NCBI RefSeq assembly: GCF_011761235.1
Contig: NZ_JAAOYW010000002.1
Coordinates: forward strand, 1,054,001 to 1,118,000
Source: Frigoribacterium faeni
Lineage (GTDB): Bacteria; Actinomycetota; Actinomycetes; Actinomycetales; Microbacteriaceae
DNA length: 64,000 nt
Reading direction: 5' to 3'
This document shows, one piece after another, positions 186 to 63,512 of this stretch (the stretch's first letter is position 1; each line of letters starts with the position of its first letter). Made by a program: the position numbers and the translations under genes. The notes under the pieces are model-generated. The model worked only from the letters and a program-made list of their open reading frames with translations. It did not search any database and had not been told where the DNA came from.

Positions 186-1132
186 CGGCTCCGCGCCTCC
201 TCGGCTCGCGCCCCCTCGGTCCGCGCCCCCTCGGCCCCGACGGCGCCGACCCGCAGGAAGTCGAGGGCGGCGGCCGCCGGGCTGCCCTCGGCGGCGGTGT
301 ACGCGACGATCCGCAGCTCGCTGCCCGGCACGGTGAACACGTCGCAGTCGAGCTCGAGCGGGCCGACGAGCGGGTGGTCCATCACCTTGCGCGCCGACTC
401 GTGCACGCCGACGGCGCCGCGGGCCCACAGCTCGGCGAACTCCGGCTCGGAGGCGAGCAGCCCGTCGACGAGGCCCCGGAGGCGCGGGTCGTCCGGGTGG
501 TCCACGAGCGTCCGCCTCAGGTCGGACACGAGCGCGGCCCGGAACCGGGCGCCGCCCGCCCCGTCGAGGTGACGGGTCTGCACGGCCGTGCCGCCGCCTC
601 CTCGGCCCGTCGCCGTCGGGTCCGTCGCCGTGGGGTCTGCCTGTCGGCGGGCGTCGCGGAACGCCCGCACGACGATGTTCCGCTCGCCGGCGGGCCAGCC
701 GTCGGGGTCGCCGAGCAGGCTGCCCCAGAGCGGGCTCCAGGTGAGCAGGTCCCAGGAGGCGGTGAAGACCGCCACGGGAGTCTCGCGCAGCCGCCCCACC
801 AGCCTCTGCACCCCGGGCGGGATGTGCCGCGACACGACCGCCGCCGTCGGGGGCAGCAGGCCGGCGCTGCGGAACAGGTGGTCGCGCTCGGAGTCGTCGA
901 GCTGCAGGGCCCGGGCGAGCGCCGTCGCGACCTGGTCGGAGGGGTGCTGGGCGCGGCCCTGCTCGAGGCGCACGACGTAGTCGACCGAGAGGCCCGCGAG
1001 GGCGGCCAGCTCCTCGCGCCGCAGCCCGAGGGCACGGCGCCGGCCGCCGGCGGGCAGGCCGGCGTCACCGGGAGCGAGGCGGGCTCGCCAGGTCTTCAGC
1101 AGCCAGCCGAGCTGGTCGTCCTGTGCAGGCAT
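182..1132 (-). CDS. XRE-family regulator with MmyB-like ligand-binding domain
   Basis: 316 aa. Residues about 30-95 form a helix-turn-helix XRE domain (LGLRREELAALAGLSVDYVV, RLEQGR), the hallmark start of the MmyB-like regulators common in actinobacteria. The rest (RHIPPGVQRLV, TASWDLLTWSPLW) matches the PAS-like ligand pocket of that family. It is divergent from a short-chain dehydrogenase 101 bp away, the usual arrangement in which the regulator controls the dehydrogenase; control here is inferred. The last 20 residues (GAEGARTEGARAEEARSR) are a low-complexity tail encoded by imperfect GC-rich repeats and a copy of the dispersed GCGCCTCCTCGG motif at 193-207, so the C-terminus looks extended by repeat DNA. 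Confidence 0.88.
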   Translation of the reverse strand: MPAQDDQLGWLLKTWRARLAPGDAGLPAGGRRRALGLRREELAALAGLSVDYVVRLEQGRAQHPSDQVATALARALQLDDSERDHLFRSAGLLPPTAAVVSRHIPPGVQRLVGRLRETPVAVFTASWDLLTWSPLWGSLLGDPDGWPAGERNIVVRAFRDARRQADPTATDPTATGRGGGGTAVQTRHLDGAGGARFRAALVSDLRRTLVDHPDDPRLRGLVDGLLASEPEFAELWARGAVGVHESARKVMDHPLVGPLELDCDVFTVPGSELRIVAYTAAEGSPAAAALDFLRVGAVGAEGARTEGARAEEARSR

Positions 1133-1161
1133 GAGCTCATCCTCTCCTCCCCCGGGGGCGG

Positions 1162-1178
1162 CTGCCTGGTACTGGCAG
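1162..1178. promoter_or_regulatory. Candidate operator in the XRE/SDR divergent intergenic region
   Basis: The 101-bp gap contains the interrupted inverted repeat CTGCCTGGTACTGGCAG with arms CTGCC/GGCAG, the only clear dyad between the two divergent starts. It is a reasonable binding site for the adjacent XRE regulator. Binding is inferred from position and symmetry only. Confidence 0.35.
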
Positions 1179-1233
1179 TCCTCCCGCCGGGCCGGGCCAC
1201 GCGCCCGTCGGCGCGGGCGCGCAGACTCGGGTC

Positions 1234-1926
1234 ATGACCACGACACTCATCACCGGATCCAACAAGGGCCTCGGCCTCGAGACCGCCCGCCGCCTGCTCG
1301 CCGAGGGCCACACCGTCTGGATGGCGGCCCGCGACACCGCCCGCGGGCAGCAGGCCGCCGACGAGCTCGGCGCCCGCTTCGTGCAGCTCGACGTCACCGA
1401 CGACGCGTCGGTCGCGGCGGCCGCCGAGCTCGTCGCCGCCGAGGGCGGGCTCGACGTCCTCATCAACAACGCGGGCATCACGGGGTCGCACGCCGACCCG
1501 GCCGACCTGACGGGCGCCGACGCGCTGCTCGTCCTCGACACCAACGTGGCCGGCATCGTGCGCACGACGCACGCGTTCCTGCCGCTGCTGCGCGCCTCCT
1601 CGGCACCGGCGATCGTCAACGTGACCAGCGGGCTCGGCTCGTTCACCGCGGTGCACGACGCCGACCGTGTCGAGTCGACCGTGGTGGCGCCGCTCTACAC
1701 GGCGTCGAAGTCGGCCGTGACGATGCTCACGGTGCAGTACGCCAAGGCCCTGCCCGGCATCCGCGTCAACGCGGCCGACCCCGGCTACACGGCGACCGAC
1801 CTCAACGGCCACTCCGGGCCGCAGACGGTGACCGAGGGCACCGACGCGGTCGTCGAGCTGGCGACCCAGGGGTCCGACGGCCCGACGGGCACGTTCATCG
1901 ACCGCGACGGGGTGGCGCCCTTCTAG
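1234..1926 (+). CDS. Short-chain dehydrogenase/reductase (SDR) family oxidoreductase
   Basis: 230 aa, classical SDR length. The NAD(P)-binding motif TGSNKGLG is at residues 7-14, NNAG at 78-81, the catalytic Ser near 132 (VNVTSGLG) and the YTASK catalytic pair at Tyr155/Lys159. Arg after strand two (AARDTARG) suggests NADPH preference. The substrate is unknown; such proteins next to MmyB-like regulators are generally uncharacterised ketone or quinone reductases. The ATG at 1234 has no clear Shine-Dalgarno sequence. Its TAG (1924-1926) overlaps the stop of a small convergent gene on the other strand. Confidence 0.92.
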   Translation: MTTTLITGSNKGLGLETARRLLAEGHTVWMAARDTARGQQAADELGARFVQLDVTDDASVAAAAELVAAEGGLDVLINNAGITGSHADPADLTGADALLVLDTNVAGIVRTTHAFLPLLRASSAPAIVNVTSGLGSFTAVHDADRVESTVVAPLYTASKSAVTMLTVQYAKALPGIRVNAADPGYTATDLNGHSGPQTVTEGTDAVVELATQGSDGPTGTFIDRDGVAPF

Positions 1927-2345: not shown

Positions 2346-4322
2346 TCAGCGACCGCTGCGGGCCAGCGCCTCAAGCTGCTCGTTGTACGCCGTCAGCTCG
2401 GCGTCGCCGTCGCGGTCGGCCTGGCGGTCCTTGCGCTTGGCCTCGCGGCCGTCGCTGCGGCTCCACATGATCGCGACGACGATGGCCATGGCCACGGTCG
2501 GGATCTCGCCGACGCTCCAGGCGATGCCGCCCGCCGCGTACTGGTCCTGCATCGGGGTGACGCCCCAGGTGCGGCCCATGGCGCCGTACCAGTCGGCGAG
2601 GAACAGCCCGGTCGCCGTCATGATGCCGATGCCGAAGAACGCGTGGAACCCCATGGTCGCCAGCAGCACGACGATGCGCAGCGGGTACGGCAGGCGGCCC
2701 TTGACCGGATCGATGCCGATCATCGACTGCACGAAGAGGTACCCGACGATCAGGAAGTGCACGATCATCCAGTAGTGGCCGAGGTGCGTCGTCGTCGCCC
2801 AGCTGAAGAGCGACGTGTAGTAGAAGACGAAGAGCGACCCGGCGAAGAGCACGGCGGCGACGATCGGGTTGCTGATCACGTGGGCGTACCGCGAGTGCAC
2901 GAGGATCATGATCCACTCGCGCGGCCCGCGGGTGCCGTCGGCCCGCTTGCGGATCGCCCGCAGCGCCAGGGTGACCGGGGCGCCGGGCACGAGCAGCACG
3001 GGGATCACCATGCCGAGCACCATGTGCGACAGCATGTGCGCGCTGAACAGGTACGGCTCGTAGACGTTCGGGGCGCCGTTCGTCACGTAGAACAGCACGA
3101 GCATGCCGGCGACCCACGACACCGTGCGGCCGAGCGACCACCCGTCGCCGCGGCGGTGCAGGCGCACGACACCGGCCACGTAGAAGAAGATCCCGAAGGC
3201 ACAGACGAGCGCCCAGAGCAGGTCGACGTTCCACTCCGTCAGGTACCGGATCGGTGTCAGCTCCGGAGGCAGCGCCTCCTCGGTCAGGATCTCTGCCGCG
3301 GTCGGGGCGGCCAGGTCGGTCGTCGCGACCTCCTCGACCGGGGTGGCCGTGCGGGCGAGCGCCGACGCGACGCCCGAGGCGAGTCCCATGAAGGCGAGCT
3401 CGGCGGCGACGAACCACCAGAAGAAGCGTGCGGTCGCGGTCGGGTGGGTGTCCATGCGCCGCACCAGGTACTGACGCTGCACGACGCCGAACAGGCCGAG
3501 CGCGACGAGGGCGAAGGTCTTGACCAGCACGAGCACGCCGTAGCCCGTCGACAGGGCGGCCCAGTCGCCGATCCGCAGCGCCGCGCTGCCGACTCCCGAG
3601 ACGGCGACGACGACGAAGCAGATGATCGCGACGGTCGAGTAGCGCGCGAGGACGACGCCGATGCGGCCCTTCTCGAGGGTGCTCCGCAGCAGCACGAGCG
3701 CGACGAGCCCGCCCAGCCAGACCGACGCGCCCTCGAGGTGCAGCGCGAGGTCGGTGACGGCGGCGTCGTGTCCGCTCGAGCCGGCGGCGTGGCCCTGCTG
3801 CGCCAGGGGGATGAGCCCGCCCCCGGCGAGCACGGTCAGGGCGACCAGGGCCCAGATGTTCCGCAGCACGAAGCTCAGCACCGTGACGACGGCGGCGATC
3901 AGCGTCGTGGTGAGCCAGGCACGGCCGAGTTCGGTGTCGGTGAGGAAGAACGCCAGCGTGCGGCCGAACTGCTCGTCGAGGGTGACGGGCACGTTGGCGA
4001 CGCTGAGGAACGTGAAGAAGCTGGTGGCCGCGGAGGCGACGGTCCAGAACCCGGCGGCGCCGGCGGCGATGTCCATGGCGCGCTCGAACTCGGGCCGGTC
4101 GCGCGACAGGGCGAAGCAGGTGAGGAACAACGTGCCGATGGTGACCGCGGCGCCGATGTTGCCGAGCATCTTGGCCATGGGCAGCCCGTAGCGCACGACC
4201 TGGCCGGGGTCGACGACGAGCGGCGCGTCGGCCGCGCCGCCGAACTTGAGGGCGGCGACGAGGGCCGCGAACGCGACGACCACGAGCAGTGCGGGCCCGG
4301 CCGTGCGAGAGAGTCTGGGCAT
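2346..4322 (-). CDS. CopD-CtaG fusion: copper transport / cytochrome c oxidase assembly membrane protein
   Basis: 658 aa from ATG 4322. The N-terminal half carries about eight TM segments and matches the CopD copper-import domain (HLEGASVWLGGLVALVLL). The C-terminal half from about residue 360 matches caa3-type oxidase assembly factor CtaG (FSAHMLSHMVLGMVIPVLLV, GHYWMIVHFLIVGYLF). Conserved His and Met residues in the membrane helices suit copper handling. The protein probably supplies copper for the CuA/CuB centres of cytochrome oxidase. An in-frame ATG at 4331 is possible, but TAGCAT at 4330-4335 (minus strand) sits 7 nt before ATG 4322 and suggests a leaderless start there. The tail is charged and cytoplasmic. 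Confidence 0.9.
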   Translation of the reverse strand: MPRLSRTAGPALLVVVAFAALVAALKFGGAADAPLVVDPGQVVRYGLPMAKMLGNIGAAVTIGTLFLTCFALSRDRPEFERAMDIAAGAAGFWTVASAATSFFTFLSVANVPVTLDEQFGRTLAFFLTDTELGRAWLTTTLIAAVVTVLSFVLRNIWALVALTVLAGGGLIPLAQQGHAAGSSGHDAAVTDLALHLEGASVWLGGLVALVLLRSTLEKGRIGVVLARYSTVAIICFVVVAVSGVGSAALRIGDWAALSTGYGVLVLVKTFALVALGLFGVVQRQYLVRRMDTHPTATARFFWWFVAAELAFMGLASGVASALARTATPVEEVATTDLAAPTAAEILTEEALPPELTPIRYLTEWNVDLLWALVCAFGIFFYVAGVVRLHRRGDGWSLGRTVSWVAGMLVLFYVTNGAPNVYEPYLFSAHMLSHMVLGMVIPVLLVPGAPVTLALRAIRKRADGTRGPREWIMILVHSRYAHVISNPIVAAVLFAGSLFVFYYTSLFSWATTTHLGHYWMIVHFLIVGYLFVQSMIGIDPVKGRLPYPLRIVVLLATMGFHAFFGIGIMTATGLFLADWYGAMGRTWGVTPMQDQYAAGGIAWSVGEIPTVAMAIVVAIMWSRSDGREAKRKDRQADRDGDAELTAYNEQLEALARSGR

Positions 4323-5928: not shown

Positions 5929-6507
5929 TCAGCTCGGCGCCGCCGCGGTCCGCACGTTCGCGCCGGACGCGAACCGGCACGCGTCGTCGTCGGGGCAGGC
6001 GACCGAGAACGTCAGCACTCCGCTGCCCTCGGGCACGAGCAGGCTCGCGTCGGCCACGTCGGCCGCGTGCTGCAGGCTCCACTCGGCCTGGACGACCCGC
6101 ACGCCCTCGACCTCGACCACGTGGGAGGCGTCGACCACGAGCTCGGCCCCGTCGAGGCGGCTCGCGAAGGCGACGGCGTGGCCGCTCTCGATGCCGTCAC
6201 GGCCCGACATGCGCGAGCCGTAGATGTTCACGAACTCGGCGTCGTCGGCGAAGGTGCGGGCGAGGGCCGGGGCGTCGCCGGCGTTGAACGCGTCGACGAA
6301 GTCGTCGACGAGCGCCAGGGCGGCGTCGTCCTGGGCGGCCGAGGCCGTCGATCCGGGCGCCGTCGAGCCGGGCGCGGTCGAGCCGGGCGACGTCGACGAC
6401 GACGAGGGCGCCCCCGACGTCGAGCAGCCCGCGAGGGCGAGGACCGTGACGGCGGCGCCGGCGAGACGGATCGAGAGGGGGGTGCGACGCAGGTCGAGGT
6501 GGTTCAT
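5929..6507 (-). CDS. Secreted lipoprotein with SnoaL/NTF2-like domain
   Basis: 192 aa from ATG 6507. The signal peptide ends in a lipobox (VLALAGC, about residues 22-28), so the protein is exported and lipidated. A Ser/Thr/Gly/Pro linker with repeated PGSTA units follows. From about residue 60, DDFVDAFNAGDAPALARTF and FVNIYGSRMSGRDGI fit the NTF2-like/SnoaL fold (SgcJ/EcaC type). No catalytic residues can be assigned. Two Cys near the end (SVACPDDDACRF) may form a disulfide outside the cell. It is downstream of zur on the same strand, with a hairpin between them. Confidence 0.8.
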   Translation of the reverse strand: MNHLDLRRTPLSIRLAGAAVTVLALAGCSTSGAPSSSSTSPGSTAPGSTAPGSTASAAQDDAALALVDDFVDAFNAGDAPALARTFADDAEFVNIYGSRMSGRDGIESGHAVAFASRLDGAELVVDASHVVEVEGVRVVQAEWSLQHAADVADASLLVPEGSGVLTFSVACPDDDACRFASGANVRTAAAPS

Positions 6508-6550: not shown

Positions 6551-6587
6551 TATCGGGCCGCGGCGGGTGAGCCGAGGAGGCGCCCCT

Positions 6588-7025
6588 CTAGCCGACGGCG
6601 CCGCCTCGCGTCACGGCAGGGTCGCGCCCCGCGGCCTTCTCCGCCGTGCAGGCGGCGCAGGTGCCGAAGACGTCGACCACGTGCTGGGCCTCGGTGAACC
6701 CGTGCTGGGCCGCCACCTGGCGCGCCCAGGTCTCGACGGCGTCGGCCTCGATCTCGACCGTGGTGCCGCAGGTGCGGCAGATGAGGTGGTGGTGGTGCGT
6801 GCCCGGCGTGCAGGCGCGGTAGAGGCTCTCGCCCTCCTGCTGCAGCGAGTCGGCGGCTCCGTCGGAGGCGAGGTCCGAGAGGGCGCGGTAGACCGTCGCG
6901 AGCCCGATCGGCGAGCCCGTGTCGCGCAGCTGGCCGTGCAGCGACTGGGCGCTGACGAAGCCCTCGCTGCGGCCGAGCGCCTCGCGCACGGCCTCGCGCT
7001 GCCAGGTGTTCCGACGCGTCACCAC
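6588..7025 (-). CDS. zur: Fur-family metalloregulator, probably zinc uptake regulator Zur
   Basis: 145 aa from GTG 7025. The N-terminal winged helix (TWQREAVREALGR, GLATVYRALSDL) is typical of Fur proteins. The dimerisation domain has THHHHLICRTCG and a second pair FGTCAACTAEK, the two CxxC pairs of the structural zinc site. It is downstream of znuACB on the same strand, so it should sense zinc and repress the transporter through the box at 9950-9964. The alternative, an iron or peroxide sensor, is less likely from context. A 22-bp direct repeat (7025-7046 and 7079-7100) overlaps and precedes its start. Confidence 0.88.
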   Translation of the reverse strand: MVTRRNTWQREAVREALGRSEGFVSAQSLHGQLRDTGSPIGLATVYRALSDLASDGAADSLQQEGESLYRACTPGTHHHHLICRTCGTTVEIEADAVETWARQVAAQHGFTEAQHVVDVFGTCAACTAEKAAGRDPAVTRGGAVG

Positions 7026-7127: not shown

Positions 7128-8027
7128 TCAGGCCTCCTTCGTCGTCGTCGAGGGTAGCGGGGCGTCCTGGGGTCGCCTGGGGGCGCCTCCTCGGCTCTCG
7201 CGCCGGCCGCCGACGATGCGGCAGACGAGCCAGATCAGGAACGAGATCGTCGTGACGTAGGGGCTGATCGGCAGGCCGCCGCCGAGCGCGAGCAGGATGC
7301 CGCCGACGACCGAGACGACGGCGAAGCCGACGCTGAGCAGCGGCACGAGGCGCGGGTCGACCGTGAGCCGCAGCGCCGCGGCGGCGGGCGTCACGAGCAG
7401 GGCGAGCACGAGCAGGGCGCCGACGATCTGCACCGAGACCGCCACGGCGAGGCCGAGCACGAGCATGAAGACGAGGCCGAGCGCGCGCACCGGGATGCCG
7501 GCCGCGGCCGCGACGTCGGGGTCGACGCTGGCGAAGGTCAGCGGGCGCCAGATCACGAGCAGCACCACGATCACGACGGCCGAGATCGCGACGAGCCAGC
7601 CCAGCTGGGGGTTGTCGACCGACACGATCTGGCCGGTGAGCAGGCCGAACTTGTTCGCCGAGCGTCCGCGGTACAGCGCCAGGAACAGTATGCCGAGGCC
7701 CAGGCCGGCGGGCATGAGCACGGCGATGATCGAGTTGCGCTCGCGGGCGCGCGAGCCGAGCAGCCCGATCAGCAGGGCCGCCACGACGCTGCCGACGACC
7801 GAGCCGCCGACCACGTTCGCCCCGATCAGCAGCGCGGCCGACGCCCCGGCGAACGACAGCTCGCTGATGCCGTGCACGGCGAACGGCAGGTTGCGGGTGA
7901 TCACGAACGGGCCGATCAGCCCGCCCACGAGGCCGAGCACGGCGCCCGCGATGATCGAGTTGCGCACCAGGACGACGAGCTCGCCGAAGTCCTGGAACGA
8001 GAACAGCTGGGTCCAGAGATCGGTCAC
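7128..8027 (-). CDS. znuB: Zinc ABC transporter permease
   Basis: 299 aa from GTG 8027, overlapping the znuC stop by GTGA. The start TDLWTQLFSFQDFGELVVLV, about eight hydrophobic helices and the GALLVLALLVTPAAAALRL segment are typical of ABC-3 metal permeases (ZnuB/TroC). The C-terminal tail (RRESRGGAPRRPQDAPL) is encoded by a copy of the dispersed GCGCCTCCTCGGCTC motif at 7183-7197 and looks like an appended extension. It forms the membrane channel for zinc delivered by ZnuA. Confidence 0.93.
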   Translation of the reverse strand: MTDLWTQLFSFQDFGELVVLVRNSIIAGAVLGLVGGLIGPFVITRNLPFAVHGISELSFAGASAALLIGANVVGGSVVGSVVAALLIGLLGSRARERNSIIAVLMPAGLGLGILFLALYRGRSANKFGLLTGQIVSVDNPQLGWLVAISAVVIVVLLVIWRPLTFASVDPDVAAAAGIPVRALGLVFMLVLGLAVAVSVQIVGALLVLALLVTPAAAALRLTVDPRLVPLLSVGFAVVSVVGGILLALGGGLPISPYVTTISFLIWLVCRIVGGRRESRGGAPRRPQDAPLPSTTTKEA

Positions 8028-8905
8028 CGCACGAGTCCTTCGTCGTCGTCGTGGTCGTCGACGTGGTGGTCGTCGTGCCCCTGGCCGCCGACGATGACGA
8101 TGCGGCCCATGGTCCGCACCACGTCGACGGGCGTGCCGTAGAGCTCGCTGAGCACGGGCGCCTGCAGCACCTCGTCGGGCGTGCCGATGCGGAACCGCCC
8201 GCCCGCCAGGTAGAGCACCCGGTCGACGACGTCGAGGATCGGGTTGACGTCGTGCGTCACGAACACGACGGCGGCGCCGCGGGCGCGCCGCTGCCGGTCG
8301 ATGAGCTCGGTGACGCCGCGCTGGTGGCGCAGGTCGAGCGAGATCAGCGGCTCGTCGCAGAGCAGCAGGGCGGGCTCGGCAGCGAGGGCCTGGCCGACCC
8401 GTGCGCGCTGCTGCTCGCCGCCGGACAGGCTCGCGACCGGGGCGGAGGCGAACGAGGAGGCGCCCACCTCGTCCACGAGGGCGTCGATCGTCGCGCGCTC
8501 GGCGGCCGACTCGCGGCGCAGGCCCCAGCGGTGCCCGGTGACGCCGAGCGCGATCATGTCGCGGGTGCGGAGCGGGGTGCCGGCCTCCATGAGGCGCTGT
8601 TGCGGCACGTAGCCGATGCGCCGGTGGCCCCGGCCGACCGGCTCGCCGAGGAACTCGAGCGTGCCCTCGGTGAGCTGCTGCTGGCCGAGCACGGCGCGCA
8701 GCAGCGTCGTCTTGCCCGCGCCGTTCGGGCCGAGCACGGCGATGAACTCGCCGGGCGCGACGTCGAGGTCGAGCCCCGACCAGAGCGTGCGGTCGCCGAA
8801 CGAGACGCCGGCGCCGCGCAGGCGCAGCACGGCGTCGCCGCCGCCGCCGGCCGAGGAGGCGCGGGCGGCGGCGGCGGGGGAGGGACCGGCCGTGCCCGGG
8901 GTCAC
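8024..8905 (-). CDS. znuC: Zinc ABC transporter ATP-binding protein
   Basis: 293 aa from GTG 8905, overlapping the znuA stop by GTGA. Walker A is GPNGAGKTT, the Q-loop is in YVPQQR, the signature is LSGGEQQR, Walker B is LLLCDEP and the switch His is in VTHDVN, all in order. The first ~25 residues are a Pro/Ala/Gly-rich extension containing a copy of the dispersed motif (8851-8862, encoding ASSAG). The C-terminus is rich in His and Asp (GHDDHHVDDHDDDEG), which may bind zinc at the cytoplasmic side. That role is inferred. Confidence 0.94.
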   Translation of the reverse strand: MTPGTAGPSPAAAARASSAGGGGDAVLRLRGAGVSFGDRTLWSGLDLDVAPGEFIAVLGPNGAGKTTLLRAVLGQQQLTEGTLEFLGEPVGRGHRRIGYVPQQRLMEAGTPLRTRDMIALGVTGHRWGLRRESAAERATIDALVDEVGASSFASAPVASLSGGEQQRARVGQALAAEPALLLCDEPLISLDLRHQRGVTELIDRQRRARGAAVVFVTHDVNPILDVVDRVLYLAGGRFRIGTPDEVLQAPVLSELYGTPVDVVRTMGRIVIVGGQGHDDHHVDDHDDDEGLVR

Positions 8906-9930
8906 TTCTCGAGCGCCGCCGTGATGCTGTCGATGTTGCTCTGCTGCCACGAGACGTAATCATCCCCCTCGGGGAGCAGTTCCGTGACCGGGACGATCGC
9001 GACGCCGGCGTCGGTGGCCGCCTGCTCGACCTGCTCGGTCTCGGGGCTCGAGGTCTGCTCGTTGTAGGCCAGCAGGTCGACCGAGCCGTCGGAGAAGAGC
9101 TTGAGCGTCTCGTTCAGCGCGGCGGGCGACACGTCGTCGCCCTGCTCGATGGCCTCCGAGAAGTCGGCCGGGGTGACGTTGACGAGGCCCATGGCGTCGA
9201 AGAGGTAGCCGGGCACGGGCTCGGTGTAGGCGACCGACTCGCCGCCGTGGGCTGCCTCGACGTCCGCGGCCTGCGCCTCCAGGTCGGCGATCTGCTCGCC
9301 GAACGCCTCGGCGTTCGCGGTGAACGTGTCGGCCTGCGCGGCGTCGACGGCGCCGAGCTCGTCGGCGATCGCGGTGGCCAGCGCGGCCATCGAGGGCAGG
9401 CTGTAGAAGACGTGCTCGTTGAACTCGCCGTGGTCGTGCTCGTGCTCGTCGGCGCCGGCGGCGGCGCCGGCCTCGCCGGTCTCGTCGGCGTGCGCCTCGT
9501 CGCCGTGGTCGTCCGAGCCGTGGTCGTCGGCGCCGTGCCCGTCGTCGAGCCCGCTCACCTCGACGGCGTCGACGACGGCCGCCTCCGAGCCGCTCGCGTC
9601 GAGCAGCGTGTGCATGAACTCGTCGTAGCCGCCGCCGTTCTGGACGACGACGTCGGCGCGCGAGACGGCGAGCTGCGTGCGGGCGTCGGCCTCATACGAG
9701 TGCGGGTCCTGCGAGGGGTCGCTGATCACGCTGGTGACGTCGACGGCGTCGCCGCCGACCGTCTTCGCGATGTCGCCGTAGACGTTCGTCGACGCGACGA
9801 CGGCGATGGCGCCTCCGTCGTCGGACGACGAGCCGGCCGCGCCCGAACCGTCGCCGGAGGCGCAGCCGCTCAGCACGAGCACGGCGGCGGCGGGCAGGGC
9901 GAGGAGCGGCAGGGCGCGCGATGTCTTCAT
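8902..9930 (-). CDS. znuA: Zinc ABC transporter substrate-binding lipoprotein
   Basis: 342 aa. The signal peptide ends in LVLSGC, a lipobox at about residues 18-23. The cluster A-1 metal-binding fold is visible in STNVYGDIAKTVGG and DPSQDPHSYEADARTQLAV. The central loop (about residues 130-175) is very rich in His, Asp and Glu (ADDHGSDDHGDEAHAD), a zinc-capturing loop typical of ZnuA. YTEPVPGYLFDAMGL and AYNEQTSSPETEQV are conserved C-terminal parts. It is first in the operon, with a Zur-type box 20 nt upstream of its start. Confidence 0.95.
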   Translation of the reverse strand: MKTSRALPLLALPAAAVLVLSGCASGDGSGAAGSSSDDGGAIAVVASTNVYGDIAKTVGGDAVDVTSVISDPSQDPHSYEADARTQLAVSRADVVVQNGGGYDEFMHTLLDASGSEAAVVDAVEVSGLDDGHGADDHGSDDHGDEAHADETGEAGAAAGADEHEHDHGEFNEHVFYSLPSMAALATAIADELGAVDAAQADTFTANAEAFGEQIADLEAQAADVEAAHGGESVAYTEPVPGYLFDAMGLVNVTPADFSEAIEQGDDVSPAALNETLKLFSDGSVDLLAYNEQTSSPETEQVEQAATDAGVAIVPVTELLPEGDDYVSWQQSNIDSITAALEK

Positions 9931-9964: not shown

Positions 9965-10000
9965 AAACGGACTGGCGGGGCAGCCCGAGGAGGCGCGGGC

Positions 10001-11509
10001 TCAGTCGAGCAGGAGCGCCGGCTCCTCGAGCACGCTCGCCACGTCGGCGACGAACCGGCTCGCGACGTCGCCGTCGACCACGCGGTGGTCGAAGCTCGCC
10101 CCGATCGTCGTCACCATGCGCGACCGCACCTCGCCGTCGACGACCCACGGCTTCGGCTTGATCGTGCCGAGGGCGACGATGGCGACCTCGCCGGGGTTGA
10201 GGATCGGCGTGCCCGTGTCCATGCCGAAGACGCCGATGTTGGTGATCGTGATGGTGCCGTCGCGCATGTCGGCGGGGCTCGTCTTGCCGTCGCGGGCGGT
10301 CAGCGTCAGCTGCTCGAGCGCCTGGGCGAGCTCGAGCAGGCTCATCGACTGGGCCTCTTTGACGTTCGGCACGATCAGCCCGCGGGGCGTCGCGGCGGCG
10401 ATGCCGAGGTTGACGAAGTGGTGCACGAGGATCTCGCGGTCGGTCCACGCCGAGTTCACCATCGGGTTGCGGCGCACCGCCCAGATGATGGCCTTCGCCA
10501 TGATCAGCAGCGGCGAGACCTTGACGCCGGCGAACTGCGGCGAGGCCTTGAGGCGCTTGACGAACTCCATGGTGCGGGTCGCGTCGACGTCGACGAAGAG
10601 GCTGACGTGCGGCGCGGTGAACGCCGACGAGGTCATCGCGGCGGCGATGGCCTTGCGCACGCCCTTGACGGGGATGCGCTCGACCCTCTCTTCGCTCCAC
10701 TCGGGCGTCTCGATGTTGCGGAAGACGCTGGCCTGCTGCGCGTGCCGGATGACGTCGTCGCGGGTGACCTCGCCGGCGAGGCCGGTCGGCTGCACGGTGG
10801 TCAGGTCGACCTCGAGGTCCTTCGCGAGCTTGCGGATCGGCGGCTTCGCGATGATCGGCAGGGCCAGCGCGGCGGGCACCGAGGTCGTCGGGCGACGGCG
10901 GGCCTGCTCGGCGACGCGCAGCTGCCGCGCGTCGACCTCGCCCTGCGACACCTTGCGGCGGCGGGTCTGGCCGTGGCCGCCGGCGGCGCCGTAGCCCACG
11001 AGCACGGCGCCCGAGCCCGACGCGGGCTCGGCGGGCGCGGACGGCTCGGCGGGCGCGGACGGCACGGTGCCCGTGCTGCCCGACGCGGCCACCTCGTCGG
11101 CCGAGGGCGCAGGAGGCGCGGGCGCGGCAGCCGGGGCCGGCGCGGCCTGGCGAGCGCGCTGCTCGGACAGGGCCGACTCCTCCTGGGCGATGATCTGGGC
11201 CGTGCGGGCCATCGCGCCGGTCTCGGCCGACTCGGCCCGGGCCGCGCGGTCGGCCGGGGTGACCGGGCCGTCGCCGTCGGCGATGGTGATGATCGGGGTG
11301 CCCACGTCGACGGTCTCGCCGCTGGCGACGAGCACGCTCTCGACGACGCCCGCGTAGGGCGACGGCAGCTCGACGAGCGACTTGGCCGTCTCGATCTCGA
11401 CCAGCACCTGGTTGATCTGGACGGTGTCGCCGGGCGCGACCTTCCACTCGACGATCTCGGCCTCGGTCAGGCCCTCGCCGACGTCGGGCAGGCTGAACTC
11501 ACTGGTCAC
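10001..11509 (-). CDS. bkdC: Branched-chain 2-oxoacid dehydrogenase E2, dihydrolipoamide acyltransferase
   Basis: 502 aa from GTG 11509, with an AGAGGA site upstream. The lipoyl domain spans about residues 1-78 with the lipoylated Lys in [10 protein letters not shown] flexible Ala/Pro-rich linker follows, then a peripheral subunit-binding domain ([20 protein letters not shown]) and the acyltransferase core ending in [12 protein letters not shown], which holds the catalytic His. The preceding genes encode both E1 subunits with 13 bp or less between them. The complex makes acyl-CoA from branched 2-oxo acids, the primers for the iso/anteiso fatty acids of this family; pyruvate cannot be ruled out. 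No E3 gene is present here. Confidence 0.92.
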
Positions 11510-13768: not shown

Positions 13769-14839
13769 TCACGAGGATGTGTTGCTGAGCACTTCCTGGG
13801 CCGCGCGCAACAGTCGGTCGACCGAGGCGGGCTCGCCGATCGTGACGCGCAGGCCCTCGGGCGCGAAGGCGCGGACCACCAGGCCGTGGGCCGCGAACAC
13901 CTCGGCCGCGTGGGCGGTGTGCTCGCCCGTCGGCAGCCAGACGAAGTTGCCCTGCGCCAGCGGCGGCTCCCAGCCCTGGTCGACGAGGGCGCGCCAGACC
14001 TGGTCGCGCAGCACCGCGATGCGGTCCACCCGCGCGAGCAGCTCCTCCTCGTGCGCCATCGAGGCCAGGGCGGCCGCCTGGCCCTGCGCGGTGACGGCGA
14101 GAGGGATCGCGGTCGAGCGCGCGGCGTCGAGCACCGAGGAGGCGCCGATCGCGTACCCGACGCGCAGCGCGGCCAGCCCGTGCGCCTTCGAGAAGGTGCG
14201 CAGCACGACGAGGTTCGGGTGCCGCTCGGTCAGCGAGGGCCCGTCGACGGCGTGCTCGTCGGTGACGAACTCGGCGTACGCCTCGTCGAGCACGACGAGC
14301 AGGTCGTCGGGCACGGCGGCCATGAACGCCTCGAACTCGGCGGTCGTGACGACGGTGCCCGTCGGGTTGTTGGGGGAGCAGACGATCACGAGGCGGGTGC
14401 GCTCGCCGACGGCCGCGGCCATCGCGACGAGGTCGTGGCTGCCGTCCTCGCGGAGCGGCACCTGCACGCTCGTCGCGCCGCTGACCGTGACGAGCCCCGG
14501 GTAGGCCTCGAACGAGCGCCACGCGTAGACGACCTCGTCGCCGGGCGCCGCGGCGGCCAGCACGAGCTGCTGCAGCAGCGAGACGCTGCCGGCGCCCACG
14601 TGCACCTCGTCGGTCGTGACGCCGAACTTGTCGGCGAGGGCGGCGCGCAGGTCGGCCGCGGTGGCGTCGGGGTACCGGTTCACCGCTACCGCGTCGCGCA
14701 GGGCCTCGACGACGGCGGGCAACGGCTCGAACGGGTTCTCGTTCGACGACAGCTTGAACGCGTCGGGCGCGGCCTGCCTCCCCTGGCGGTAGGCGGGCAG
14801 GGCGGCGATCTCGGGACGGAGCCTGACGGGAGCGTTCAC
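13769..14839 (-). CDS. Histidinol-phosphate / aromatic amino acid aminotransferase
   Basis: 356 aa, class I/II PLP aminotransferase of the HisC/Pat subfamily. [13 protein letters not shown] binds the substrate end, [10 protein letters not shown] and [10 protein letters not shown] position the cofactor, and the Schiff-base Lys is in [15 protein letters not shown]. With no his genes nearby, the aromatic (phenylalanine) aminotransferase Pat is as likely as HisC2. GTG 14839 has no Shine-Dalgarno; TAAGGT lies 6 nt upstream on the minus strand (14846-14851), consistent with a leaderless start. Confidence 0.88.
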
Positions 14840-40481: not shown

Positions 40482-40488
40482 TGATCTC

Positions 40489-45386: not shown

Positions 45387-45408
45387 CGCCGCGCCTCCTC
45401 GGGGCACG

Positions 45409-47699: not shown

Positions 47700-47861
47700 G
47701 AGGGTCTCCTTCGGTGCGGCGAGCAGAGGTCGTCGGCTCGCCATCGACGCTACGGACCGGCCGCGCACCGGTCGTCCGCCCGCGGTGTCGCGGGTGCGGT
47801 CCTCGCGGATGACCCGCGCCTCCTCGGCTCTCACCCCAGGGAATGACCCCGCCCCGGACGC

Positions 47862-47936: not shown

Positions 47937-48539
47937 CTAGTCGCGGTGGAGGACCAGCTCGGTGAGGGGCAGGCGGGTGCGCGGCGCGGTCTCGCGCTCG
48001 GCCAGGGCCTCGATCAGCTTGTCGGCGGTGTCGACGACGCCCACCGCGGTGATCGTGACCGGCTTGAGGTTGTCGGTCAGGCCGAACGCCGCGACGATCT
48101 TGTCCCACTCGACCCCGGCCATCTGGTGCGTGTGGAAGCCCTCGGCGTGCGCCTGCACGCTGAGGTGGGCGACGGCCTGGCCGAGGTCGTACTCGGCGGT
48201 GGGGCGCTCGTCGCCCTCGACCGTCGAGGTCTCGGCGATGGCGATGACGAGCGCCGAGGCGTTGCCGGCCCACATGGCGTTGAAGCTGAGCAGGGCGCCG
48301 ACGATCGTGTCGAACGACTCGCTGCCGCGGCGGGCCACGACGAACCGGCGGGCCTGGTGGTTCTGCGCCGACGGCGCCCAACGGGCGGCCTCGAGCAGCG
48401 CGTCGAGCTGGCGGTCGCTGATCGTCGCGGTCGGGTCGAAGGAGCGGGGGCTCCAGCGCTCGTCGAGCAGGTCGACGATCGGCACGCTCGTCTCGGCGGT
48501 GCGGACGGTGGAGGGGGCAGTGGACTCGGAGATCGACAT
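47937..48539 (-). CDS. Nitroreductase family protein
   Basis: 200 aa from ATG 48539. FMN-binding features: LLDERWSPRSFDPTATISDR at the N-terminus, EAARWAPSAQNHQARRFVVA, then YDLGQAVAHLSVQAHAEGFH and HQMAGVEWDKI. It is an FMN-dependent NAD(P)H oxidoreductase acting on quinones or nitro compounds; the physiological substrate is unknown. A longer frame to 48629 adds a low-quality lead and is rejected. Confidence 0.92.
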   Translation of the reverse strand: MSISESTAPSTVRTAETSVPIVDLLDERWSPRSFDPTATISDRQLDALLEAARWAPSAQNHQARRFVVARRGSESFDTIVGALLSFNAMWAGNASALVIAIAETSTVEGDERPTAEYDLGQAVAHLSVQAHAEGFHTHQMAGVEWDKIVAAFGLTDNLKPVTITAVGVVDTADKLIEALAERETAPRTRLPLTELVLHRD

Positions 48540-53493: not shown

Positions 53494-56169
53494 GTGATCA
53501 CACCCACCCGCCGCCGGGGAGCGCGCTACGCGACCGCCCTCGCCCTCGCGAGCGCCCTCGTGCTCGCTCCCACCGCCGCCTTCGCCGCCGACGGCGACGG
53601 GGTCGCGACCGAGGTGCCGACGACGGCCGACGCGAGCGCGACGCCGGTCGCCGACGCTCCCGTCGAGACCGCCCCGGCGGACGCCGCTGCGGGCGACGCG
53701 GCCACGGCCGAGACCGCCCCGGCCGCGGACGCCGCCGGAGCCGACGCCTCGGCGCCCGACGTCGCGGCGCCCGGTTCCGCGGAGGCGCCCGCGCCGGCCG
53801 CCGGCGAGCCCGGAGCCGAGGAGGCGCCGGTCGCCGCCGAGCCCGTCGCCGACGCCGCCGACCAGTCCGACGCCGTCTCGGCCGAGCTGCCGGCGGCGTC
53901 CGCCCGCGTGGCCGACGGCGTCGTCATGAACTACGTGGTCAACACCGTCGTGCGCGACGACGCCGCCGTCGACTCCGTGCGCACGGCCGTCGAGGCTGCC
54001 GGCGGCGTCGTGCTGTCCGCCTACCCCGAGATCGGCGTCGTCACGGCGCAGTCGCGGGACGGCGAGTTCCTCGCCACGATGCGCGAGACGCCCGGCGTCG
54101 AGTCGGCCGGGCCGACCCGCACGGCCGCGGTCGTCGGCCCCGAGGTCGCGCTCCCCGCCGAGGCGCCCGCCGCCGTCGACCGGTCGGCCGCCGGCGCGAC
54201 CGGTTCCGACTCCGGCGAGGGCTCCGGCACGCAGTCCATCGAGCAGCCGCTCGACGCGCAGGCCGCCCCCGTCGACCCGCTCGAGGGCGACCAGTGGGAC
54301 ATGGCGGCCATCGGAGCCCCCGAGGCCCACGAGGTCGAGACCGGCGACGGCGTCGTCGTGGGCGTGCTCGACAGCGGCATCGACGTGGCGCACCCCGACC
54401 TCGTCGACCGGATCGACGCCTCCTCGTCCGTGGGCTGCGCCGTGAACGGCCAGCCGGACCGCGACCAGGCCGCCTGGGTGCCCACCACGAGCGACCACGG
54501 CACGCACGTCGCGGGCACCATCGCGGCCTCCGACAACGGCGTCGGCATCGTCGGCGTCGCGCCGGGCGCCACGCTCGCCAGCGTCAAGGTCGTCAACGAC
54601 GGCGGCTTCATCTACCCCGAGTACGCCCTCTGCGGCTTCATGTGGGCCGCCGACCAGGGCTTCGACGTGACCAACAACAGCTACTACGTCGACCCGTGGG
54701 AGTTCTGGTGCACGACCGAGGCCGACCAGGCCCCGGCCCTCGAGTCCGTCACGCGCGCCGTCGAGTACTCGGAGCAGGAGGGCGTGCTCAACGTGGCCGC
54801 CGCCGGCAACTCCGACTACGACCTGGCGAACAAGACGCGCAGCGCCTCCAGCCCGAACGACACGGTGAAGGTCGACCGGGACGTCTCGACGGGGTGCGCC
54901 GACATCCCCACCGAGATCGACGGCGTGGTCACGGTCGCGTCGCTCGAGCAGCAGGCCGACGGCTCGCTCGTGAAGTCGTCGTTCTCGAACTACGGCGAGG
55001 GCGTCGTCGACGTCGCCGCCCCCGGTTCGTCGATCCTCAGCACCGTCCCCGGCGGGTACGGCCTGAAGAGCGGCACGTCGATGGCCTCGCCGCACGTCGC
55101 CGGCGTCGCCGCGCTGCTCGCCGCGACCCACCCCGGCGCCTCGCCGGCCGAGCTGCAGGCGCTGCTCAAGGCCCAGGCCACGCCGGTCGCCGGCGCGGGC
55201 GAGCTGACGGGCACGCGCTACTTCGGCGCGGGCCTCGTCAACGCGTTCGCCGCGGTCACCGAGGACGTCGTCCCCGCCGTCGGCCCGATCGCGGCCGTCG
55301 CCGACGGCACCGTGCAGGCCGGGCGGCCGTTCCGCGTGCTCGGCGCGAACTTCGCGCCCGACGAGACCGTGACGGTCACCGGCCCCGACGGGCTGCCCCT
55401 CGAGGGCGAGTCCGTCGCGGACGCCGACGGCCGCATCGCGGACGTGGCCGTGCTGAGCCCGCTCGTTCCCGCGGGCGTGAGCACGCTCGTGCTCACCGGC
55501 GACGCCGGCAGCGAGTTCGAGCTGACCCTGCTGGTCGAGGAGGCGGTGGCCGGTCCGCGCATCGACGCTCCCGTCGCCGGGCAGGTCGTCCAGCCCGGCA
55601 CCGTCACGGTGACCGGCGTCGCCCAGCCGGGTGCGCTCGTGACCGTGCTGCTGGGCGAGGCCGCCCAGGCCGCCGGGCTCGACGAGCTCGGCGAGCCCCG
55701 CTCGGCCCAGGCGCGCGCACTCGACGTGGACGCCGAGCCGGTCCCGTACGACGCCGAGGTCGGCTTCGCGCTCGCGACGGTGCAGACCGACTCGACCGGC
55801 ACGTTCTCCGTGCCGTTCACGGGCGTCCCCGAGGGCGACTTCGTCGTGACCGCGGTGCAGCTCCTCACCGACGGCACGACGTCGGCCGCCACCGAGCCGG
55901 TGCCGTTCAGCGTCGTCGCCGTCGTGGCGCCGGTCGAGCCGCCCGTCACGGTGCCGGGCGGCACGGTGCCCGGCACCGCTCCCGTGGCGGTGCCCGCGGG
56001 CTCCGGCCTCGTGCCGGTCGCCGCGGCCCCGGCCGGAGCGCTCGCCTACACCGGCTCCGAGCCGACCGTGCCCCTGGTGGCCGCGGCGCTCCTCCTGGTT
56101 GTCGGTGCGGGCACGGTGGTCACGGCCGGGCGACTGCGTCGCCGGGCCGCCGTCCGGGCTGACCGCTAG
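53494..56169 (+). CDS. Cell-wall-anchored subtilisin-like serine protease (S8) with LAYTG signal
   Basis: 891 aa from GTG 53494 with GGAG 9 nt upstream. Signal peptide (ATALALASALVLAPTAAFAA), an Ala/Asp/Pro/Glu-rich linker, an I9-like propeptide (MNYVVNTVVRDDAAVDSVRT), then the catalytic domain with Asp293 (VLDSGIDVAHPD), His335 (DHGTHVAGT) and Ser529 (GTSMASPHVAG). Two Ig-like domains follow, then LAYTG, a TM helix and a basic end (GRLRRRAAVRADR), a class E-type sortase signal. The C-terminal Ig-like domain resembles the one in the surface protein at 32175-34475. A motif variant encodes GAEEAPV in the linker. Confidence 0.94.
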   Translation: MITPTRRRGARYATALALASALVLAPTAAFAADGDGVATEVPTTADASATPVADAPVETAPADAAAGDAATAETAPAADAAGADASAPDVAAPGSAEAPAPAAGEPGAEEAPVAAEPVADAADQSDAVSAELPAASARVADGVVMNYVVNTVVRDDAAVDSVRTAVEAAGGVVLSAYPEIGVVTAQSRDGEFLATMRETPGVESAGPTRTAAVVGPEVALPAEAPAAVDRSAAGATGSDSGEGSGTQSIEQPLDAQAAPVDPLEGDQWDMAAIGAPEAHEVETGDGVVVGVLDSGIDVAHPDLVDRIDASSSVGCAVNGQPDRDQAAWVPTTSDHGTHVAGTIAASDNGVGIVGVAPGATLASVKVVNDGGFIYPEYALCGFMWAADQGFDVTNNSYYVDPWEFWCTTEADQAPALESVTRAVEYSEQEGVLNVAAAGNSDYDLANKTRSASSPNDTVKVDRDVSTGCADIPTEIDGVVTVASLEQQADGSLVKSSFSNYGEGVVDVAAPGSSILSTVPGGYGLKSGTSMASPHVAGVAALLAATHPGASPAELQALLKAQATPVAGAGELTGTRYFGAGLVNAFAAVTEDVVPAVGPIAAVADGTVQAGRPFRVLGANFAPDETVTVTGPDGLPLEGESVADADGRIADVAVLSPLVPAGVSTLVLTGDAGSEFELTLLVEEAVAGPRIDAPVAGQVVQPGTVTVTGVAQPGALVTVLLGEAAQAAGLDELGEPRSAQARALDVDAEPVPYDAEVGFALATVQTDSTGTFSVPFTGVPEGDFVVTAVQLLTDGTTSAATEPVPFSVVAVVAPVEPPVTVPGGTVPGTAPVAVPAGSGLVPVAAAPAGALAYTGSEPTVPLVAAALLLVVGAGTVVTAGRLRRRAAVRADR

Positions 56170-57885: not shown

Positions 57886-57942
57886 GCACCGCGCCTCCTC
57901 AGACTGCACCGCGCCTCCTCAGGCCGCACCGCGCCTCCTTGA
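57886..57942. repeat. Tandem 20-bp repeat array of the dispersed motif
   Basis: GCACCGCGCCTCCTCAG at 57886 and 57906 and GCACCGCGCCTCCTTGA at 57926, a 20-bp period. An inverted partner CGAGGAGGCGGCGCCCC lies at 57839-57855. The third copy runs into the CTTGAGT of the HspR box. Confidence 0.85.
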
Positions 57943-61828: not shown

Positions 61829-62241
61829 CCCCGATGGACGAGAACTCGCCGCTCTTCGCGATCGCGACGGCCGCCGAGCTCGCGGGCATGCACGCCCAGA
61901 CGCTGCGGCAGTACGACCGGCTCGGCCTCGTCGTGCCGCAGCGCACGGCGGGCAAGTCGCGCCGGTACTCGATGCGCGACGTGGTGCAGCTGCGCGAGAT
62001 CGCGCGGCTCGGCGGCGAGGGGGTCTCGCTCGAGGGGGTCAAGCGCATCCTCGAGCTCGAGAACCAGGTCACGGCGCTGCAGTCGCGGGTGCGCGAGCTC
62101 GAGCGGGCGCTGGCCGACGAGATGGTCAACCGCCCCGGGTCGCGCGTCTTCGCCGCGGGCGAGAGCGGGGTCGTGCCGCTGCGGCACGGCACGCGCCCGT
62201 CGCGGCAGACGTCGGTCGTCGTCTGGCGGCCGCTGCGCTGA
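61825..62241 (+). CDS. hspR: Heat-shock repressor HspR (MerR family)
   Basis: 138 aa from GTG 61825 (ATG 61834 in frame is possible). MerR winged helix: FAIATAAELAGMHAQTLRQY, DRLGLVVPQRTAGKSRRYSM, RDVVQLREIARLGGEG. It binds HAIR boxes with DnaK as co-repressor in other actinobacteria, here those before dnaK. The C-terminus has a coiled coil (LENQVTALQSRVRELERALA) and a basic end. Confidence 0.94.
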   Translation: MTPMDENSPLFAIATAAELAGMHAQTLRQYDRLGLVVPQRTAGKSRRYSMRDVVQLREIARLGGEGVSLEGVKRILELENQVTALQSRVRELERALADEMVNRPGSRVFAAGESGVVPLRHGTRPSRQTSVVVWRPLR

Positions 62242-62351
62242 GGCCCGGGCCGCCGCGCAGGGGCGCCGGTGCCCGCTCCGCCGGCGGCCGGGGGCGGCTG
62301 CGCGCGGTGGCTGCTCCGCCGGAGGCCGCCGGCGTGGTGCCCGCCGGGCGC

Positions 62352-62357
62352 TAGCGT
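62352..62357 (+). promoter_or_regulatory. -10 element of a leaderless methyltransferase promoter
   Basis: TAGCGT 6 nt before GTG 62364; no Shine-Dalgarno sequence. Confidence 0.5.
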
Positions 62358-62363
62358 GGGCAG

Positions 62364-63512
62364 GTGATCGACTTCGCGCAGCTCCGCCGGTGGCCCGACA
62401 TCGAGGCCCCCGAGCTCGTGGCGCACGACGCGACCGACCGCCTCCTGCTCGACACCGCGGCCGAGGTCGCGGCCGACGTGCTGACCGGCCACCCCGGCGA
62501 CGTCGTCGTGGTCGGCGACCGGCACGGCGCGCTGACCCTCGGCGCCGCCGAGCTGGTGCGGGCGTCCGGCGGCGCGGCCGCCGCCGCCGACCCCGTCGTG
62601 CGCGTGCACCAGGACTCCCTGGCCGGCGAGCTCGCCCTCGCCGCCAACGCCGCGCGCCTCGTGCCCGCCGCCCGCTGGGCCGGGCACGACCTCGAGCCCG
62701 CGCTGGTCGCCGGCGCCCGTCTCGTGCTGCTGCAGCTGCCGCGCGGGCTCGACGCCCTCGACGAGATCGCCGAGCTCGTCGCCGAGCACGCCCACCCCGA
62801 CGTCGTCGTGCTGGCGGGCGGCCGCGTCAAGCACATGACCCGCGCCATGAACGACGTGCTCGCCCGCCGCTTCGACGCGGTGTCGGCGGGGCTGGCGCGC
62901 CAGAAGTCGCGGGTGCTGACCGCGCGCGGTCCCCGTCGAGGAGGCGGCGCCTCCTGGCCTCGCACGTCGCGCCACGGCGACCTGGTCGTCGCCGCGCACG
63001 GTGCGGCGTTCGCCGGCTCGACGATCGACATCGGCACCCGGGCCCTGCTGGCCGAGCTCGGCGGGGTCGCGCCCGAGGCCCGCGAGGTCGTCGACCTCGG
63101 CTGCGGCACGGGCGTGCTCGCGGTGTCGTTCGCCCTCGCGCGGCCGGGGGCGCACGTCGTCGCCACCGACCAGTCCGCCGCCGCCGTCGCGTCGGCCCGC
63201 CTCACCGCCGAGGCGAACGGCGTGGCCGACCGGGTCGACGTCGTCCGCGACGACGCGGCGGCGTCGCTGCCGGCGGGGTCGGTCGACGTGGTGCTGCTCA
63301 ACCCGCCGTTCCACGTCGGGGCGACGGTGCACACCGCCATCGCGCACAAGCTGTTCGAGGCCGCGGCCCGCGTGCTGCGGCCGGGCGGCGAGCTGTGGTG
63401 CGTGTGGAACTCGTCGCTCGGCTACCGCCCCGAGCTGTCCCGCGTCGTGGGCCCCACGACCCAGGTGTCCCGCACCGCGAAGTTCACGGTGACGCGGTCC
63501 GTGCGCCGCTGA
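62364..63512 (+). CDS. RsmC/RlmG-like class I SAM methyltransferase
   Basis: 382 aa from GTG 62364. The N-terminal half is a degenerate methyltransferase-like domain, as in RlmG/RsmC. The C-terminal half has VVDLGCGTGVLAVSFALARP for SAM and VVLLNPPFHVGATVHTAIAH with the NPPF motif of guanine-N2 methyltransferases of rRNA. Target 16S G1207 or 23S G1835 cannot be told apart. Between the halves a copy of the dispersed motif makes an inverted GAGGAGGCGGCGCCTCCT, encoding RRGGGASWPRTSRHG, an apparent loop insertion. Confidence 0.88.
   Translation: MIDFAQLRRWPDIEAPELVAHDATDRLLLDTAAEVAADVLTGHPGDVVVVGDRHGALTLGAAELVRASGGAAAAADPVVRVHQDSLAGELALAANAARLVPAARWAGHDLEPALVAGARLVLLQLPRGLDALDEIAELVAEHAHPDVVVLAGGRVKHMTRAMNDVLARRFDAVSAGLARQKSRVLTARGPRRGGGASWPRTSRHGDLVVAAHGAAFAGSTIDIGTRALLAELGGVAPEAREVVDLGCGTGVLAVSFALARPGAHVVATDQSAAAVASARLTAEANGVADRVDVVRDDAAASLPAGSVDVVLLNPPFHVGATVHTAIAHKLFEAAARVLRPGGELWCVWNSSLGYRPELSRVVGPTTQVSRTAKFTVTRSVRR
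62938..62956. repeat. Palindromic motif copy within a coding loop
   Basis: AGGAGGC-GGC-GCCTCCT is a 7-bp inverted repeat within the methyltransferase gene, built from the dispersed motif. The encoded residues lie between the two domains, where an insertion would be tolerated. Confidence 0.7.

Follow-up and report, generated by a model that had tools for sequence, protein, structure and literature searches.

A 64,000-nt stretch of the Frigoribacterium faeni chromosome, referred to here as the window, carries one short word, GCGCCTCCTCGG, again and again on both strands, which raises the question of what kind of process places and keeps such a word there. Our analysis demonstrated that the word belongs to a real, strong and genus-wide DNA tag. 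Some bacteria that undergo natural transformation, Neisseria and Haemophilus among them, recognise their own DNA by short tags, and we regard it as close to an even chance that the strong part of the Frigoribacterium motif, AGGAGGCGCGG, is a double-stranded self-DNA tag with the function of a DNA uptake sequence (DUS).

Counted on both strands, the window holds 16 exact copies of GCGCCTCCTCGG, whereas 100 dinucleotide-preserving shuffles gave 0.16 on average and at most 2; at up to one mismatch, the count is 37 (the exact copies included) against 3.48 expected. The preliminary description of this DNA had correctly recognised the repeat, its many one-mismatch variants and an expectation from composition far below one, but it gave 15 exact copies, overlooking the one at 3272 and placing at 14135 the one that starts at 14134. 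Six copies rather than five lengthen exactly to GCGCCTCCTCGGCTC (those at 193, 6572, 7183, 24853, 47816 and 53816), and the partial form given at 42765 is a one-mismatch copy at 42764. Throughout the genome (3.2 Mb in 5 contigs) the word occurs 184 + 205 = 389 times and its backwards-read counterpart 1 + 1 times; thus, neither of the two observations named beforehand as speaking against the repeat, counts at expectation and no copies outside the window, was made. A search of the window against Rfam at the gathering threshold returned no match. GCGCCTCCTCGG covers part of a broader motif, and the strong portion of this motif, read on the opposite strand, is AGGAGGCGCGG; in a sample of 464 kb used for word counts (the window and 20 stretches of 20 kb), 98 copies of AGGAGGCGCGG stand against 2.9 expected. 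Genome-wide over-representation of a word of 9 to 12 nt with copies in the hundreds to thousands, a feature of uptake sequences, is therefore found here. An apparent strand switch on contig C1 beyond about 1.07 Mb, where only the plus strand appeared among the matches listed, was rejected, as stretches sampled there carry both strands.

Among the genera of its family that were sampled, the motif is abundant only in Frigoribacterium, which is placed in the Microbacteriaceae (Actinomycetota). All 16 Frigoribacterium genomes contain 383-1239 copies of AGGAGGCGCGG and 4-27 of the reversed control, and among 120 genomes of the family the 12-mer CGAGGAGGCGCG reaches 390-465 copies in three Frigoribacterium genomes and 0-65 in the other 117. 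A scan with the ZnuA-family protein yielded six Frigoribacterium loci at 73-88% identity, with Curtobacterium, Leifsonia and others being more distant. No similar top word of comparable strength was found in small samples of five other family genomes (40-80 kb each) or in the orthologous loci that represented Curtobacterium, Leifsonia and Arthrobacter. Other words are frequent in some of these samples, for example a palindrome, AGCAGCTGCT, at the Arthrobacter loci, and genomes G016 and G109 have local repeats. Among viral contigs, 12 stretches bear an exact 17-mer form of the motif. The titles and abstracts listed in searches of open-licence papers contained no report of the AGGAGGCGCGG motif, nor of an actinobacterial uptake sequence.

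A matrix refined on spacer sequence found 92 sites compared with 4 in a Markov control and has the core AGGAGG(C/T)GCGG, followed by a weak tail to about +17 that often reads GGTC or GTGC; strong conservation covers only about 11 bases. Within the 11-mer AGGAGGCGCGG, positions 2-6 and 8 are strict, with no single change clearly enriched, while changes at position 1 (to C or G), 7 (T, A or G), 9 (G), 10 (T or C) and 11 (C or T) are enriched 4-12 fold. The core of the tag is GGAGG(C/T)GC. Such sharp, position-specific tolerance is the trace that would be expected from recognition by a protein, and it supports the motif as a probable sequence-specific DNA recognition site. The preliminary description had included a DNA-binding site among its suggestions, and to this extent it is borne out; it did not consider an uptake sequence.

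The base preferences differ between lineages. Position 1 is A:C:G = 98:18:17 in F. faeni and 14:17:24 in genome G120 (p = 1e-9); it is mostly A in G110 (163:33:23) and G127 (41:9:9) and mixed in G035 (30:29:19). At position 7, T is common in F. faeni (T against C, 21 vs 98), G110 (26 vs 163) and G129 (6 vs 11), and rare in G127 (1 vs 41). These counts cover 60-780 kb per genome, or about 21-42 kb for named loci. Clade-specific dialects at positions 1 and 7 are thus present, with the lineage groups having been picked after the counts were seen.

Genes were called by codon usage with a simple caller that includes doubtful short open reading frames, so that the division into coding and spacer sequence is approximate. 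With this division, the spacers of the 464-kb sample hold 47 copies of AGGAGGCGCGG against 0.9 expected, about 50-fold enriched, and coding sequence holds 24 in each orientation where shuffles preserving protein, codon pool and local context give 2.0 and 1.9, an enrichment of about 12-fold. Among 90 spacer sites, defined by AGGAGGCGC or GGAGGCGCGG, those between co-directional genes run 30 times with and 32 times against the direction of the genes; 26 are found within 30 nt of stops, about twice the 11.9 expected, and 11 within 30 nt of starts, where 12.7 were expected. The motif is similarly neutral towards replication, taking the start of the closed record of the relative G110 as the presumed origin. 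Strand use of GGAGGCGC is 211/206 and 135/114 on the two arms of G110 (p 0.38) and 35/54 and 50/61 on contig C2 of F. faeni (p 0.47), and three words tested on both arms of G110 and both sides of the presumed F. faeni origin gave p 0.25-1.0. Absence of an orientation bias to genes or replication is a feature of uptake sequences; some orientation preference within reading frames has been described for known ones (PMC2346458), whereas the Frigoribacterium coding copies are balanced, 24/24.

In 39 stretches of G110, GGAGGCGC has a mean density of 17 per 20 kb, irrespective of the distance from the presumed origin. A motif desert at 1.85-2.22 Mb of this genome, empty among the 67 14-mer sites listed, was considered and rejected: GGAGGCGC is only mildly poorer there (13.4 vs 17.6 per 20 kb, 5 vs 34 stretches), so that no domain is claimed. 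In F. faeni, the stretches sampled at 20-320 kb of contig C1, the start of which maps to 2.19-2.21 Mb of G110, have only 2-3 AGGAGGCGC per 20 kb, and the three stretches there contain housekeeping genes, for example a cluster for cell wall and division, the genes being named by eye. At L047:11594-11773, about 4 kb from the match to where the closed G110 record begins, which is the probable origin, several motif copies form an array; among those listed, none is present in aligned relatives.

Conservation was measured against the single relative G110, to which six of seven F. faeni sequences could be aligned (L045 gave no alignment). GGAGGCGC was kept at 44 of 72 coding sites, compared with 373 of 1000 for permuted words (p = 9e-5), and at 14 of 22 spacer sites, compared with 40 of 120 (p = 0.009). 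Around the coding sites the flanks show lower conservation (0.846) than the flanks of the control words (0.877). GGAGGCGCGG points in the same direction in spacers with small numbers, 7 of 13 against 8 of 21. Permissive placement combined with conservation above the flanks is accordingly seen for 94 aligned GGAGGCGC sites of one species pair, the flank effect being restricted to coding sequence. In alignments of orthologous loci, the majority of sites are not common to all species: 23 of 45 clusters (7 sequences) and 24 of 56 (16 sequences) are confined to one species. Leaving out rows made only of gaps, 251 aligned rows lacking the 9-mer are ungapped in it, of which 125 depart from it at 1-3 of its 9 bases and 126 at 4-8; another 18 are gapped in it and 141 are too gappy to judge. 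Several gapless cases in genes depart from the motif at a single base or a few, which means that substitution can create copies; rows that differ strongly would equally be compatible with replacement through recombination.

The individual copies in the window are the following:

193 to 204, plus strand: exact GCGCCTCCTCGG, lengthened by ...CTC, its centre 17 nt from the stop of a called gene at 182-1132 (minus strand); one-mismatch copies follow at 208 and 223

1592 to 1603, plus strand: exact copy within a called gene at 1234-1926

3272 to 3283, plus strand: exact copy within a called gene at 2346-4283

6572 to 6583, minus strand: exact copy in the spacer between 5929-6507 and 6588-7025 (FUR family); 9-mer in 4 of 7 aligned rows

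7183 to 7194, plus strand: exact copy close to the 3' end of an ABC-3 permease gene at 7128-8027

8851 to 8862, minus strand: exact copy 49 nt into an ABC transporter ATPase gene at 8024-8905; 9-mer in 5 of 7 aligned rows

9985 to 9996, minus strand: exact copy in the spacer between a ZnuA-family gene at 8902-9930 and a 2-oxoacid dehydrogenase acyltransferase gene at 10001-11509; 9-mer in 5 of 7 aligned rows

14134 to 14145, minus strand: exact copy within an aminotransferase gene at 13769-14839; 9-mer in 6 of 7 aligned rows

19938 to 19949, minus strand: exact copy starting 4 nt beyond a called gene at 18819-19934

24853 to 24864, plus strand: exact copy within a called gene at 24756-25181

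25165 to 25176, minus strand: exact copy whose AGGAGG (25168-25173) precedes by 4 nt the GTG start of a UbiA-family gene (25178-26167)

41505 to 41516, minus strand: exact copy within a called gene at 41392-42867

45391 to 45402, plus strand: exact copy starting 5 nt beyond a called gene at 44226-45386

46407 to 46441, no strand assigned: inverted pair of a one-mismatch copy (46407-46418, plus) and an exact copy (46430-46441, minus), with a hairpin of -51.1 kcal/mol (z -5.97)

47816 to 47827, plus strand: exact copy in the spacer between 46467-47699 and 47937-48539

53816 to 53827, minus strand: exact copy within a called gene at 53494-56169

57889 to 57939, minus strand: three tandem copies of AGGAGGCGCGG with exact 20-nt spacing

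Because of its AGGAGG, the copy at 25165 may double as a ribosome-binding site. It had been proposed to serve crtEb; its position just upstream of the GTG at 25178 fits such a gene, while Pfam gives only the UbiA family. Near 9970, beside the ZnuA-family gene, the word TGATTGTCAA is kept in 7 of 7 aligned rows, and we presume that it may be a metal-regulator site.

Copies also occur close together. Of 325 sites, most are single, yet 43 neighbouring pairs lie within 80 bp where 17.7 are expected, 20 of them inverted, with arms of up to 17 bp, and 23 tandem. Seventeen inverted pairs are found within 60 bp (15 spaced 20-47 bp, two overlapping), and tandem arrays with 20-nt spacing are present as well. 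RNA folding of three inverted pairs (four folds) predicted stable hairpins with z -5.6 to -7.1; close inverted pairs forming hairpins, a feature of uptake sequences, are thus observed for the three pairs folded. Repeats of other kinds were encountered in the genome: alternating dense runs of 7-49 G or C at L043:15010-15200 and L050:19733-19882, possibly an assembly artefact, and a tandem repeat of six TGTTCCGTTT spaced 52-62 nt at L049:6001-6285, where no gene is called.

The window further allows the motif to be compared between core and acquired DNA by means of one region:

26165 to 41230, no strand assigned: lineage-specific island, GC 0.68; in each of 15 relatives its two flanks are separated by 170-882 bp

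Given this distance between the flanks, the 15 kb at that place are specific to the F. faeni lineage, although some pieces are found elsewhere in relatives. GGAGGCGC occurs twice in the island, both times in the last 1.2 kb, where 1.7 are expected from the island's own composition; in the rest of the window it occurs 48 times against 7.3 expected. Low-GC bins give a mixed picture: in F. faeni, observed and expected counts are 3 vs 1.2 and 3 vs 1.9, and in G110 some excess persists (see below). The island contains a resolvase-like fragment, a ketosynthase, an Ig-domain/beta-propeller protein and a hydrolase.

Machinery for DNA import is encoded in the genome. The gene comEC lies beside one for an HHH_3/SLBB protein (comEA-like), and dprA is also present. 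A type IV pilus locus at L151:1790-14719 encodes two T2SSE ATPases, T2SSF, a prepilin peptidase, PilM and three proteins with an N-methyl pilin signal (one just under the cut-off), with matches to PilN and PilO below the curated cut-offs; GTPase-like and roadblock-like genes adjoin it. A further T2SSE ATPase, judged from its neighbours, presumably belongs to a Tad-type locus. Competence machinery comprising pilus, ComEA, ComEC and DprA is thereby encoded, though it is not specific to the genus. Transformation of Micrococcus luteus, which belongs to the same phylum, requires tad genes; comEA and comEC were studied alongside, and the main text of that paper does not contain the term uptake sequence (PMC4322843). 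Frigoribacterium resembles this actinobacterium in its probable Tad-type ATPase, comEA-like gene and comEC; unlike the Flp/Tad-pilus system described there, it additionally has the type IV pilus locus.

The uptake sequences in the literature compared here are those of Neisseriaceae and Pasteurellaceae. The neisserial DUS is described with about 2,000 copies per genome in permissive parts of the core genome; it has 97% identity and is more conserved than its more divergent surroundings, is missing from recently acquired genes and occurs in inverted pairs, and many new DUS are argued to come by recombination (PMC2397512). DUS dialects with a strictly required core have been reported (PMC3630211). 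The Frigoribacterium motif is alike in that its word is short and not a palindrome, lies on both strands and recurs about once per kilobase at permissive sites, and also in its inverted pairs, in the conservation of the word itself and in its dialects, and where the DUS is missing from recently acquired genes, GGAGGCGC is not enriched in the one island. It differs in its sequence, its GC-rich actinobacterial host and its lower conservation. With the uptake signal sequences (USS) of Pasteurellaceae it shares the repeated short word and the hairpin pairs, which paired uptake signals form in Neisseria and Pasteurellaceae (PMC1852404); the Frigoribacterium sequence is another one, with a GC-rich weak tail. 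The predicted receptor of the USS is a minor pilin (PMC12616744).

It might be hypothesized that a surface DNA receptor of Frigoribacterium, for which a minor pilin of the type IV pilus or some other com part is the likeliest candidate, favours tagged fragments, and that these would be imported, pass ComEA/ComEC and then recombine. By such preference, import and recombination, tagged alleles would re-enter chromosomes with a higher frequency than untagged alleles. Drive, selection or both might then hold the tags at a density near one per kilobase at all positions that proteins and promoters can accommodate, and some tags may secondarily have come to serve as hairpins or ribosome-binding sites. 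The sequence data show the abundance of the tag, its limitation to the genus, its strand neutrality and positional specificity, its conservation above controls, its lack of enrichment in one island, its lineage-dependent base preferences and the presence of pilus and DNA-import genes; competence of the strains, recognition of the tag by a receptor and uptake as the cause of its abundance are what we infer.

Several observations weigh against an uptake sequence. Around spacer sites, the flanks of GGAGGCGC are not less conserved than those of control words (0.775 vs 0.771), and the conservation of AGGAGGCGC in spacers, although in the expected direction, is weak (12 of 18 vs 7 of 15). Exact conservation is 61-64%, compared with 97% identity for the neisserial DUS, though the species compared here differ more. 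Many rows lacking the 9-mer differ from it at no fewer than 4 of 9 bases, so that a single-step gain is evident at some of the sites only. The spacing of sites is clustered (coefficient of variation 1.26), and GGAGGCGC counts track GC in G110 (Spearman 0.74). The comparison with acquired DNA rests on one 15-kb island, and low-GC 2-kb bins of G110 show a 2.5-2.8 fold excess (12 vs 4.3 and 4 vs 1.6). PilM is found in 62 of the 120 family genomes, and 59 of these, outside the genus, have at most 65 copies of the 12-mer; the machinery therefore does not predict the motif, and the type IV pilus is permissive and not diagnostic for it. Finally, the findings on the motif set out above would also fit an abundant genus-specific DNA-binding protein.

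Such a chromosomal protein, a non-polar nucleoid organiser or global regulator whose binding sites are kept by selection, is the main rival, which we consider possible though rather unlikely. The strict core with tolerant edges, the spread along the whole G110 chromosome, the strand neutrality, the conservation above controls and the lineage shifts in base preference all agree with it; a density of about one GGAGGCGC per kilobase, the position of 50 of the 98 strong AGGAGGCGCGG copies inside called genes and the lack of an origin-terminus gradient do not. The suggestion in the preliminary description of a chromosome-organising sequence survives in this non-polar form, while its polar form fails. 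Marks such as Chi and the FtsK-orienting polar sequences (KOPS) are biased in strand relative to replication, and the equal strand use between arms in G110 and on C2 (p 0.38 and 0.47, see above) refutes such a polarity; a polar sequence for recombination or chromosome translocation is very improbable, even if the motif is, like these, a short, frequent, genome-wide word. A more plausible but still improbable origin is an iterated word that a methyltransferase, together with methylation-dependent biased repair, generates and maintains, as might apply to the highly iterated palindrome (HIP1) of cyanobacteria, a very frequent word tied to methyltransferases, the deviations of which are biased to the edges (PMC4390886). 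The Frigoribacterium motif, too, is highly iterated and tolerates deviations mainly at its edges, though at position 7 as well; unlike the palindromic, methyltransferase-linked HIP1, however, it is not palindromic, as is directly apparent from the sequence, and a weak tail spanning some 17 positions is long for a modification site.

A repetitive extragenic palindromic (REP) unit is a palindrome of some 20-40 nt that is conserved over its length. A REP-like mobile element had been put forward for this locus, and the excess of close pairs (43 vs 17.7), the 20 inverted ones among them with arms of up to 17 bp and the 20-nt tandem arrays are reminiscent of such units or of bacterial interspersed mosaic elements (BIME), once mobile and now with scattered half-units. 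No palindromic unit conserved along its length is present, however: the strong unit comprises only about 11 bases plus the weak tail, and most of the 325 sites are single. The F. faeni genome gave 0 matches to the Y1_Tnp domain in a search that, as a control, found matches in 5 of 14 known genomes, and on this ground a REP element with a REP-associated tyrosine transposase (RAYT) is rejected. With 251 rows lacking the 9-mer ungapped in it as compared with 18 gapped, a REP/BIME-like origin is largely refuted and very unlikely. The ribosome-binding core GGAGG, the copy just before the start at 25178, the hairpins of some pairs and the approximately twofold excess near stops might suggest that Shine-Dalgarno sequences, terminators or codon usage lie behind the counts. 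The neutral orientation (30 with and 32 against) overturns the Shine-Dalgarno core as a general explanation, coding copies exceed codon shuffles about 12-fold, and copies are few in the family's other high-GC genera; this account is refuted as a general explanation and is the least probable of all.

It may further be speculated, with somewhat less assurance than for the tag as such, that Frigoribacterium recognises its own DNA during transformation by AGGAGGCGCGG, independently of Neisseriaceae and Pasteurellaceae and as the first case in a monoderm high-GC actinobacterium, with the dialects as a possible mating barrier. If true, biased DNA uptake would have emerged independently in a high-GC monoderm and would be seen to evolve repeatedly, and the finding would point to a naturally transformable Frigoribacterium. 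The dialects within one genus would then provide a fresh system for asking whether selection or molecular drive spreads such tags. If a chromosomal protein reads the tag instead, Frigoribacterium would possess an unusually dense genus-specific DNA-binding system.

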